DNA of 64,000 nt from a bacterium (lineage in GTDB: Bacteria; Campylobacterota; Campylobacteria; Campylobacterales; Sulfurimonadaceae), in the NCBI GenBank assembly GCA_018825665.1, contig JAHJEG010000011.1:1-64000 (forward strand), written 5' to 3'. Of the stretch, positions 2,115 to 36,695 are shown piece by piece. The notes below the pieces were generated by a model, which did not search any database, was not told the DNA's origin, and worked only from the letters and a program-made list of their open reading frames with translations. The first letter of the stretch is position 1. Every line of letters begins with the position of its first letter. Made by a program: the position numbers and the translations under genes.

Positions 2115-2125
2115 GGCATGTGGAA
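2115..2125 (+). repeat. GGCATGTGGAA word, intergenic copy
   Basis: Exact copy of the 11-base word that recurs through the window (preceded by C). It lies 9 bases after the ilvD stop in the 191-base gap before thrS. Short complementary bases (TCTCC/GGAGA, 2128-2145) follow it, but no T-run. A degenerate CACATATGCC at 2168-2177 could be a decayed partner. Confidence 0.8.
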
Positions 2126-2297: not shown

Positions 2298-4106
2298 GTG
2301 AATGCAATTGCAATAAAACACAATGATGAAATTATTGATTTACAAACTGCCAAAGAGCTTGGTTTTGAAGGGGAACAGATTCACCTTGACAATTCAAAAG
2401 ATTCTTTGGAGGTACTTCGTCATTCAACAGCGCACCTAATGGCGCAAGCTATAAAATCTTTGTACCCTGATGCCGAATTTTATGTCGGACCGGTAGTAAA
2501 AGAGGGATTTTACTATGACTTCAAAACAAAAGAAGTAATAGGTGAGGGTGATTTAAAAAGTATTGAAAAGCAAATGCTCTCTTTTGCAAAGAAAAAATAC
2601 GAGATTGAAAAATATGAGATCTCCATGGATGAGGCAAAAGAAAAGTTTAAAGATGACCATTTAAAACTTGCTGTTATGCAAAGAATACCCGGTGACAGAG
2701 TCTCTATATACAAGCAGGGGGAATTTGAAGACCTGTGCCGAGGACCGCATCTACCGAATATAGGGCTAATCAGATATTTTAAACTTATGAAAATTGCAGG
2801 TGCCTATCTTGGAGGAGACTCTAAAAATGAGGTGCTCACTCGTATATACGGCATTGCATTTGCCGATAAAGAGTCCTTGAAAGCGCACTTGGATATGATA
2901 GCCGAGGCTGAAAAGCGTGACCATCGTAAACTGGGTAATGAGATGAAGCTTTTTACTTTCAGAGAAGAGGTCGGAGCAGGTTTTCCTATCTGGCTTCCAG
3001 CGGGCGGGCGTCTTCGTGCAAGATTGGAAAGTCTTCTTTTTAAAGCACACCGTAAACGCGGATATGAGCCTGTACGCGGGCCTGAAATGCTTAGAAGCGA
3101 TCTTTGGAAAACATCCGGACACTATCAGAATTATGGTGAGAACATGTATTTCACAAACATAGACGAAGTGGAGTTTGGTGTAAAACCGATGAACTGTGTC
3201 GGACATATAAAAGTGTACGAAGAGGATCTTCACTCTTACAGAGATTTGCCTTTGAAGTATTTTGAGTACGGAGTGGTGCATCGTCATGAGTTTACGGGTG
3301 CGCTTCACGGACTTTTCCGTGTTCGTGAATTTACCCAGGATGATGCGCATATTTTCTGTACGTCCGAGCAGATTGAAGAGCAGATTATTGAAGTGGTGGA
3401 TTTTGTTGATAAGATTATGTCAACATTTGAATTCAATTACAAGATGATGATCTCAACGAAACCTGAAAAAGCTGTCGGTGACGACAAAGTGTGGGAAATT
3501 TCTACACAGGCATTAAAAAATGCAATGGATAAAAACAGCCTTCCGTATGAGATCGATGAAGGCGGAGGTGCATTTTACGGTCCAAAGATCGATATTAAAA
3601 TTACCGATGCAATCGGTCGTGAATGGCAGTGCGGGACAATTCAGCTAGACTTTAATCTGCCTGAGAGATTTGAACTTGAATATAACGGCGAAAATAATGA
3701 TAAAATTCAGCCGGTTATGATTCACAGAGCAATTTTAGGTTCGTTTGAGCGTTTTATTGGTATATTAACGGAACACTATGCTGGTGAATTTCCGATGTTT
3801 ATTGCTCCAACACAGGTCGCGATAGTCCCGATAGCGGAAACTCACAATGCTTATGCTAAGGAATTATCTGATAAACTTATGGATATCGGAGCTGATACGG
3901 AGATTTATTCTAAGAACGATTCTTTAAATAAAAGGATCAGAACAGCTGAAAAAGCTCGTGTTCCAATGATTATCGTTTTAGGTGATGAGGAAGTCGAGAA
4001 TAAGTCTATAGCAGTTAGGGATCGTAGAACGAGAGAACAATATAATCTAAGCGAAGGGGATTTCCTGTCGCTTATACAAACTAAAATAAATGAGGTAAAT
4101 TTTTGA
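2298..4106 (+). CDS. thrS: Threonyl-tRNA synthetase
   Basis: ThrS charges tRNA-Thr with threonine in the cytoplasm. The 602-residue protein carries, in order: a short TGS-like N-terminus (about 1-40), the N2 editing domain with HSTAHLM and CRGPHLP, the class II catalytic core (zinc cysteine in KPMNCVGH near residue 299; [12 protein letters not shown]), and the anticodon-binding domain starting at PTQVAIVPI. The start is a GTG with AGGA at 2285-2288; the nearby ATG is out of frame. The 3' end overlaps infC by four bases (TTGA), so the two are translationally coupled. Confidence 0.96.
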
Positions 4107-4621
4107 GTAAAAAAACAGACCGTGTCATAATGAATGACGATATTCGTGTACCTGAAGTGCGTTGTAATGTAGATGGAGCAGAGTCTTTAGGTATCGTATC
4201 TACTGACGAAGCTATGGAAAAAGCAAATGAATTGGGCTTGGACCTTGTTTTAATCGCTCCTGATGCAAAACCACCTGTTGCGAAGATTATGGACTACGGT
4301 AAGTACAGATATCAAGAAGAGAAAAAACTCAAAGAGCAGCGAAAAAATCAGACTAAGATCGATGTAAAAGAGATCAAGTTGTCTGTAAAAATTGCTGATA
4401 ATGACATAGCGTATAAAGTTAAGCATGCCAGAGAGTTTTTGACTGAAGGCAAGCACGTGAAATTCCGCGTCTTTTTAAGAGGTCGCGAGATGGCTAATCC
4501 GGACGCTGCGAGAGATGTTCTTTTAAAAGTTTGGCCGATGGTTGAAGACCTGGGCACAATGGACAAACCTCCGCGCTTTGAAGGCCGTTATTTCAATATG
4601 CTTGTTTTGCCGAATAAATAG
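4103..4621 (+). CDS. infC: Translation initiation factor IF-3
   Basis: IF-3 binds the 30S subunit, prevents 70S formation and proofreads the start codon. The 172-residue length and the motifs [20 protein letters not shown] and KEIKLSVKI are typical. The start is TTG at 4103, overlapping the thrS stop in TTGA, with GAGG seven bases upstream. A non-AUG start is common for infC and lets IF-3 regulate itself (known for E. coli, where it is AUU). In many bacteria rpmI and rplT follow infC; here a hairpin and a convergent gene follow instead. Confidence 0.96.
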
Positions 4622-4654
4622 GTATAGTTTTTATATAGTTTCTACTACTGCGAT

Positions 4655-4682
4655 TTCCACATGCCGATCTTGGCATGTGGAA
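4655..4682 (+). terminator. Hairpin made of two inverted GGCATGTGGAA words
   Basis: TTCCACATGCC (4655-4665) and GGCATGTGGAA (4672-4682) form a perfect 11-bp stem with a 6-base loop (GATCTT). It sits between the infC stop (4621) and the stop of the convergent transporter (4689). The + strand continues into a moderately T-rich stretch. Paired uptake words serving as bidirectional terminators are known in Neisseria and Pasteurellaceae; a terminator role here is inferred. Confidence 0.7.
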
Positions 4683-4688
4683 TATGAT

Positions 4689-6011
4689 TTATTTTAAAAT
4701 CTTCACTTTAATATCGTCTTCGTTTATTGCTTCCATACTGTACTTTACAACGATTAAATTTTCGGTTTCATTTTCATACCACTCTGCAATATGCTCATTC
4801 TCAAGCGTGCTGAGCTTCTGCATATCGACCGTATCCTGTGCAAGGTAAAGGTGTGCATACTTCGTTGGATTTTGTAATCTTAAAGTCCATAGCAGCCATA
4901 GGACGGCTAGAGCAGCTACTGATACACCGATAGTTTCCCTGTCACTTATATCTAAAAGTAAACCGGCAAGAGTACCGCCGAAAAAAGTAGCAAAATATGC
5001 AACAGAATTGGATATACCCAGCGCGGCACCCTTTTGATGTACTTTGGCAAATTTTGTAATCATAGACTGAACCAATGGCTCCATCATGTTAAATGCTACA
5101 AAAAAGAAAACCACTCCAACGACAAAAACAGTACTTGAAGCTGTAAGTCCCATAATTAAAAAAGAGGCGATGAAAAGAACTATTGAAAAAAGAAAAATCT
5201 CTTTTGGCTTGTTTTTCTTCTCTCCAAAAACCGCAGCAGGGCCCATAGCAAGAAGCCCTAGAACCATTGCCGGCAGATATGCCTTGTATAAATCCGCCTT
5301 TTCCCATCCAAATCCATAGCTTTCATTGGTAAGGATGATAGGAATAAGCACAAATGCAACAGTCATAAGACCTTTTTGCATGGCATTTATAACAATCATA
5401 TTTAAAAGGTTGGAGTCTTTGAGAATATCTGAGGTCTTTGATTTTTCGTGATAAACATGTTTTATTCTCGGAGGAGTAGGCACTTTTGTAAATAAAACGA
5501 CCATAGAAACGATTGCCAAAACAGCCGTGATAATAAATAAAGTATCCACACCGTAGTGTGCACCTATTACAGGTCCGACTCCCATTGCAATAGCAAAACT
5601 TATACCGATAGAAGCACCCATAATGGCCATAGCCTTGCCGCGAATCTCCTCTTCAACAAGATCTGATATCATAGCGGTGATAACGGAACCTATAGCTCCT
5701 GCACCCTGAAGAAATCTGCCTAGCATCAAAGTGTATATATCAGTAGCATAGGCAGATATAATCGAGCCTATTAAAAATATTATCAGACCAAAAAGAATAG
5801 TCGGCTTTCTTCCTATCTTGTCGCTCATGCTTCCAAAAGGAACCTGAAAAAGTGCCTGTGTCAGTGCGTAACCGCCAACAACGACACCGACTAGAAAAGG
5901 TGTGGCACCCTCTAATTCCAAGGCGTAAATCGCAATAACCGGTAAAACTAAAAAGAGACCTAAAAAGCGAAGGGAAAGTATGGCAGAGAGCGGAAAGACT
6001 TTTTTGAACAT
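4689..6011 (-). CDS. Major facilitator superfamily transporter, YajR-like
   Basis: This is a 440-residue inner-membrane transporter of about 12 helices. The MFS motif A is clear as GSMSDKIGRKP near residue 62, after a first hydrophobic helix. About 60 soluble residues follow the last helix (from roughly 380, ending EDDIKVKILK). A small ferredoxin-like domain in that place is the hallmark of E. coli YajR, so a YajR-type proton-driven exporter is the best guess; the substrate is unknown. The start ATG has AGAGGTAA upstream and a TATAAT box at 6029-6034. It is transcribed alone, divergent from rdgB. Confidence 0.85.
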   Translation of the reverse strand: MFKKVFPLSAILSLRFLGLFLVLPVIAIYALELEGATPFLVGVVVGGYALTQALFQVPFGSMSDKIGRKPTILFGLIIFLIGSIISAYATDIYTLMLGRFLQGAGAIGSVITAMISDLVEEEIRGKAMAIMGASIGISFAIAMGVGPVIGAHYGVDTLFIITAVLAIVSMVVLFTKVPTPPRIKHVYHEKSKTSDILKDSNLLNMIVINAMQKGLMTVAFVLIPIILTNESYGFGWEKADLYKAYLPAMVLGLLAMGPAAVFGEKKNKPKEIFLFSIVLFIASFLIMGLTASSTVFVVGVVFFFVAFNMMEPLVQSMITKFAKVHQKGAALGISNSVAYFATFFGGTLAGLLLDISDRETIGVSVAALAVLWLLWTLRLQNPTKYAHLYLAQDTVDMQKLSTLENEHIAEWYENETENLIVVKYSMEAINEDDIKVKILK

Positions 6012-36272: not shown

Positions 36273-36695
36273 TTGTCTTTTACTCCCCATACCCCCTATC
36301 TCGCGACCGACGGTATCGTTGAGATCTATAGCAGCTCAAACGAATTCGAGGGGATAGTCCTGATCCAAAGAAAAAACGAACCGCTGGGCCTTGCTCTTCC
36401 AGGCGGATTTGTTGATGTCGGCGAGTGCGTAGAGGATGCAGTTGTAAGGGAGATGCAAGAAGAGATCTCTCTGGACGTCAGGATACAAAAACTTCAGGGT
36501 GTCTACTCTGACCCCTCACGCGATAAAAGGTTTCATACAGCATCTGTGGTCTATGTCTGCCTGGCATGTGGAATTCCACATGGAGCGGATGACGCAAAAG
36601 AAGCACATGTGTATAGACTGGATGAGATACCGCTGGACAAACTCGTTTTTGACCATAAAAAAATACTTCAGGACTACCTTGGAAATAAATCTTAA
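36273..36695 (+). CDS. Nudix hydrolase
   Basis: This 140-residue protein has a complete Nudix box, starting GGFVDVGECVEDAVVREMQ at about residue 44 and ending EEISLDV, so it hydrolyses a nucleoside diphosphate linked to another group. The N-terminus TDGIVEIYSSSNEFEGIVLIQRK and the length resemble ADP-ribose or ADP-sugar pyrophosphatases; the substrate is not certain. TTG start, seven bases after galU. An exact repeat word and an 18-base perfect palindrome (36565-36582) are embedded in it. Confidence 0.85.
   Translation: MSFTPHTPYLATDGIVEIYSSSNEFEGIVLIQRKNEPLGLALPGGFVDVGECVEDAVVREMQEEISLDVRIQKLQGVYSDPSRDKRFHTASVVYVCLACGIPHGADDAKEAHVYRLDEIPLDKLVFDHKKILQDYLGNKS
36563..36584 (+). repeat. GGCATGTGGAA word with back-to-back inverted partner
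   Basis: GGCATGTGGAA (36563-36573) is followed directly by TTCCACATGGA (36574-36584, two changes), giving the perfect 18-base palindrome at 36565-36582. It is read as L-A-C-G-I-P-H-G inside the Nudix gene, between the Nudix box and the C-terminus. Confidence 0.75.

Follow-up and report, generated by a model that had tools for sequence, protein, structure and literature searches.

A repeated 11-nucleotide word of Sulfurimonas, a putative DNA uptake sequence, forms inverted-pair hairpins behind stop codons

In the stretch of bacterial DNA analysed here (64,000 nt; contig JAHJEG010000011.1 of assembly GCA_018825665.1, positions 1 to 64,000; hereafter the window), the most over-represented 11-mer is GGCATGTGGAA. 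The word is abundant throughout its host genome, that of a sulfur-cycling bacterium placed in Sulfurimonas via named relatives. Its close inverted pairs outnumber direct ones and lie at the 3′ ends of genes, and a hairpin recurs at the orthologous junction of related species. Taking these observations together, we regard it as reasonably probable that GGCATGTGGAA is an uptake word whose close inverted pairs are kept almost only behind stop codons, where they would serve as mRNA 3′-end hairpins.

The hairpin at positions 4655–4682 reads TTCCACATGCC-GATCTT-GGCATGTGGAA and is built from two oppositely oriented, exact copies of the word: the left arm (4655–4665) carries GGCATGTGGAA on the minus strand, and the right arm (4672–4682) carries it on the plus strand. 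The arms pair perfectly over 11 bp around a 6-nt loop (4666–4671), in which a G–U contact closes one further pair in the plus-strand RNA. The hairpin lies in a 67-nt gap (4622–4688), on one side of which is the stop codon of infC (translation initiation factor IF-3; 4103–4621, plus strand; Pfam IF3_N and IF3_C) and on the other that of a convergent MFS transporter gene (4689–6011, minus strand; Pfam MFS_1). It starts 33 nt past the infC stop and ends, at its other side, 6 nt past the MFS gene stop. The preliminary description had given the same account of stem, loop and convergent gap, and the sequence and the Pfam assignments of the genes bear out both its coordinates and its wording. RNA folding yields –19.5 kcal/mol for the plus strand and –19.3 kcal/mol for the minus strand, corresponding to z-scores against shuffled sequences of –4.95 and –5.71, respectively, with 0 of 200 shuffles folding equally well. 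A stable GC-rich hairpin close behind the stop codon, as expected of a terminator, is therefore present at this junction. On the plus strand it is followed by an interrupted T-tail (TATGATTTAT, T in 5 of 8 nt) that passes a loose terminator scan, and on the minus strand T occupies 2 of the following 8 nt, so that a T-rich tail is absent.

Within the window the word occurs in 17 exact copies, which start at positions 2115, 4655, 4672, 19772, 20693, 20794, 23328, 23549, 28175, 30240, 31903, 36563, 40537, 45825, 46538, 51373 and 56537. The first (2115–2125, plus strand) is a scattered copy between two co-directed genes; at 36563–36584 an exact word is followed immediately by an opposite copy with two mismatches, which creates a second inverted arrangement. 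Across the 2.34 Mb of the genome the word is counted 535 times (254 forward, 281 reverse) and the reversed control not once, i.e., the over-representation in both orientations that characterizes the uptake words of Neisseria (DUS) and Pasteurellaceae (USS). The flanks show weak preferences only, for C or T at –3 to –1 and for A, T, T at +11 to +13 (present in 43–49% of the copies), and about 3 nt away from the word their information content is already close to zero. The spacing of the copies, tested for evenness, is no more even than random.

Close pairs were searched genome-wide as 10-mer copies separated by a gap of 0–24 nt. Inverted pairs number 39, of which 24 have the –/+ arrangement of the focal hairpin and 15 the +/– arrangement, versus 7 direct pairs (binomial p = 2e-6); a rough estimate from word density alone predicts about 3 inverted pairs. 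A simple home-made codon-usage caller, which predicted 554 genes (89% coding), assigned the gene context over 635 kb comprising the window and 31 stretches chosen around the 39 inverted pairs, and because of this choice the intergenic share was computed separately for pairs and single words. Of the 39 inverted pairs, 36 lie outside genes: 14 have convergent neighbours, 21 tandem, co-directed ones and none divergent ones, and one is at a contig edge, whereas 78% of the single words are intragenic and 39 of 178 intergenic (Fisher p 9e-17). Placement at gene ends is therefore mainly a property of the pair and not of the word. Divergent gaps are avoided (0/35, p 3e-4), convergent gaps are enriched (14/35 versus 20% expected), and most stems begin no more than about 30 nt from a stop codon. 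The loops vary from pair to pair, and the gap lengths run from 0 to 24 in both orientations. An excess of inverted pairs behind genes, with direct pairs rare, is a further mark of the DUS/USS class; the parallel with Neisseria and Haemophilus drawn in the preliminary description is thus real, at frequencies beyond chance. We note separately that one +/– pair of this genome (L105, 10117–10140) abuts a tRNA T-arm-like sequence (GAGTTCGAATCC); ARAGORN finds no tRNA in this context.

The relatives searched comprise 135 genomes of the genus, several of them fragmentary MAGs. Apparent duplicates, recognized among other things by identical places or counts, were counted once (G165/G077, G160/G083, G158/G096, G163/G111, G162/G084, G161/G107, G150/G159 and G098/G164). 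The form GCATGTGGAA is present in 331–1014 copies in eight Sulfurimonas species, in about 50–200 copies in a further group, and at background level in some 110 genomes. At least eight species have a high word density, each with 17–96 inverted pairs. With the 9-mer core, the genomes G000, G077, G083, G084, G096, G107, G108 and G110 contain 24, 22, 17, 45, 22, 35, 9 and 44 pairs in the –/+ arrangement (the G084 count being taken under the alias G162) and 14, 17, 42, 37, 26, 32, 8 and 52 in the +/– arrangement, respectively. The sums, 218 and 228, reveal no consistent orientation bias across the eight species.

The sequence of the word is differently guarded in different genomes. One-off variants amount to 0.24–0.37 per exact copy in the host genome, G083 and G084, in which near-misses are purged, and to 2.1–4.3 in G111, G156 and G159, in which the variants are spread across the word. 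In G129, G100, G164, G036 and G168 variation is confined to the edges around a fixed core, in the manner of dialects: TGGCATGTGG followed by A or G in G129, G100 and G164, CATGTGGAA preceded by G or A in G036, and TTGGCATGTG in G168. Such lineage dialects around a conserved core are likewise found in the DUS/USS class. GGCATGTGGAA appears to be an actively maintained, species-group-specific repeated word, which most likely serves a naturally transformable Sulfurimonas clade as its DNA uptake sequence.

Other repeated words are present in the order. Several neighbouring Campylobacterales genomes (L050, L052, L058, L066 and L070; G166, G167, G170 and G171) contain, roughly every 1–5 kb, a near-palindromic word of another kind, (G)CTTACATGTAAG. 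It has the CATGT core in common with the Sulfurimonas word, and it may likewise be an uptake word, or else a site for a regulator. AAACGCAG(C) is over-represented in some of the word-less Sulfurimonas (G016, G173 (L007), L006, L008 and L032), by 11–16 fold in G016 and G173.

Orthologous infC–MFS junctions were fetched with thrS (threonyl-tRNA synthetase; 2298–4106, plus strand; Pfam), located upstream of infC, as a handle. Word pairs occupy the junction in L011 and L055, in L011 with a tail of 6 T in 8 nt. In L003 the pair carries the same, compensatory change in both arms and contains GGCATGTAGAA twice; this form was considered as the dialect of that genome and rejected, since its 12 copies, versus 77 of the standard word, read as decay. 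The L010 junction has a 16-bp stem based on a single word, that of L013 a decayed word pair, and in species without the word the gap is occupied by unrelated hairpins. Judged from these junctions, the infC–MFS site calls for a hairpin, and word-bearing species appear to build theirs from words.

The preliminary description likened the pair to the terminators that inverted uptake words form in Neisseria and Haemophilus. Position behind genes and a folded stem stand; the terminator attributes as a whole are only partly supported. Downstream of 42 gene-end word hairpins the 8 following nucleotides contain 2.64 T on average, against a background of 2.57 and against 3.47 after non-word hairpins of the same genome, and at least 5 T of 8 follow 14% of the word hairpins, compared with 12.5% of the background and 29% of the non-word hairpins. 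This background T content, together with the lack of an orientation bias that would go with T-tails, does not support a strict terminator claim. The reading of the pair as a classical Rho-independent terminator, a GC-rich hairpin plus U-tract in which the uptake word is recycled as the stem as in Neisseria, is therefore rather unlikely, even though the pairs stand just behind stops, convergent gaps are enriched for them, the focal plus strand passes the loose scan and L011 has its T-rich tail; the focal minus strand, with T in 2 of 8 nt, offers no such tail. A plausible alternative, which nonetheless falls short of probable, keeps the word as an uptake word and makes the hairpin itself non-terminating, an exonuclease barrier that stops 3′-end trimming after Rho-dependent termination in the manner of E. 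coli REP elements. Strong stems near stops without a U-tract would fit such a barrier, and the about equal use of the two pair orientations suits a need for the stem alone, but the partial U-rich tails at some sites, including the focal plus strand, do not. Common to both alternatives is a hairpin at the end of the message, and the word hairpins likely act as mRNA 3′-end hairpins.

Readings that dispense with an uptake word fare less well. If the pair were a double-stranded palindrome for a DNA-binding protein, either a regulator or a nucleoid protein, with the single words as half-sites, the exact 24-bp palindromes formed by some +/– pairs in G083 and G077 would be accommodated; yet spacings of 0 to 24 nt in both orientations are unlike a dimer site, divergent promoter gaps are the ones avoided, and the majority of the words are single and intragenic, which together make this reading improbable. 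High copy number and a hairpin at gene ends would also suit a mobile or duplicating repeat of the REP or MITE type, of which the focal hairpin would be one copy. Conservation, however, extends past the word by no more than a few bases, the loops differ among pairs and the single words are mostly intragenic; with no conserved element beyond the word, such a repeat is very improbable. A polar recombination or segregation motif of the Chi or KOPS type, to which the high copy number and the non-palindromic form of the word would be suited, is disfavoured by the lack of strand bias (73:76 for single words relative to the G-rich strand, 254:281 overall) and would leave the inverted pairs behind genes unexplained, so that we consider it extremely improbable. 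The palindromes themselves are an observation in their own right: in G083 and G077 many +/– pairs are the exact 24-bp sequence GGCATGTGGAAATTTCCACATGCC, e.g., at G083:C13:14059–14082.

In the explanation we propose, of an uptake word re-used as a 3′-end hairpin, a pilus-borne receptor would read the word during DNA uptake. Retention of close opposite copies would be nearly restricted to sites just past stop codons, since a pair transcribed there would give a strong hairpin by which the 3′ end is formed or protected. On one strand the hairpin at 4655–4682 may thereby form or protect the mRNA 3′ end of infC, and on the opposite strand that of the MFS gene, acting on the RNA either as a terminator or as an exonuclease block.

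Support for the uptake role is indirect and comes from the purging of near-misses, the decay of the word elsewhere, its lack of strand polarity and the competence genes. The host genome encodes an intact ComEC of 432 aa and ten N-methyl prepilin N-terminal motifs, i.e., the uptake machinery (ComEC and type IV pilus-like pilins) that a DUS/USS-class word calls for. ComEC was considered as a marker of word-bearing species and rejected, as it is near-universal in the genus (78 of 79 good-quality genomes). The only good-quality genome without a ComEC hit is G156 (99% complete), in which the word is decaying; in G111, with a decaying word as well, comEC is without its N-terminal part (L156, 3355–4119). 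Overall, ComEC is intact in 10 word-maintaining genomes, with 2 more undecided, and lost or truncated in 2 of 4 decaying ones (Fisher estimate about 0.07). The other two, G078 and G150, retain ComEC of normal length, and the link between word decay and comEC loss or truncation is therefore only suggestive. The normal ComEC of these two genomes counts against the proposed explanation, as do the near-universality of ComEC, the random-like spacing of the copies and the general lack of U-tracts behind word hairpins. Adjoining comEC in the host genome, dnaB (replicative helicase; L097, 6775–9255) appears to carry an intein.

One published statement limits the known uptake words to Neisseriaceae and Pasteurellaceae (PMC12616744). 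No joint report of uptake sequences and Sulfurimonas was found in the literature searched, and a search for the word gave unrelated strings among the matches listed. In Neisseria and Haemophilus, inverted pairs of the uptake word are commoner than direct ones and are located behind genes, and the prevalence of the +/– arrangement in Neisseria probably reflects the A- and T-tails that it provides (PMC1852404). The Neisseria DUS (GCCGTCTGAA) resembles the Sulfurimonas word in being a word of 10–12 nt with hundreds of copies, inverted pairs in tail-to-tail gaps and behind genes, rare close direct pairs, and dialects that differ at the edges of a fixed core (PMC1852404, PMC3630211, PMC12616744). 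Unlike the DUS, the Sulfurimonas word, whose uptake role is putative, belongs to another phylum, is unrelated in sequence and comes without a T-tail and without a consistent preference for +/– pairs. The Pasteurellaceae USS (AAGTGCGGT / ACAAGCGGT) shares the hairpin pairs behind genes and the lineage-specific variants, but it is likewise unrelated in sequence, and its long AT-rich 3′ extension is only hinted at in Sulfurimonas by the A, T, T preference. By architecture, then, the word would work like DUS and USS, as a putative member of that class.

Within the same phylum, Campylobacterota, C. jejuni also discriminates self-DNA in transformation, as is putative for Sulfurimonas, but relies for this on the methylated RAATTY site, which is short and methylation-dependent (PMC10046745), whereas the Sulfurimonas word is long, strongly enriched and non-palindromic. 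The hairpins in turn recall a further system in their proximity to stops and their general lack of a U-tract. E. coli REP elements likewise form stem-loops shortly after stop codons and have no U-tract; they are longer, whereas the Sulfurimonas stem consists of two word copies alone, which also occur singly in genes.

From these comparisons, Sulfurimonas may well hold a third, independently evolved family of uptake words (core GCATGTG), with dialects, with ongoing gain and loss within the genus, and with pairs re-used as mRNA 3′-end hairpins lacking a U-tract, in a phylum otherwise known for methylation-based discrimination only. Hairpin and T-tail, which coincide in Neisseria, are separated here, the position of the hairpin being kept without the T-tail. 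A third origin, if true, would provide one genus with maintaining, dialect, losing and word-less species, in which direct tests of the origin, spread and decay of an uptake word, and of its coupling to transformation, would become possible.
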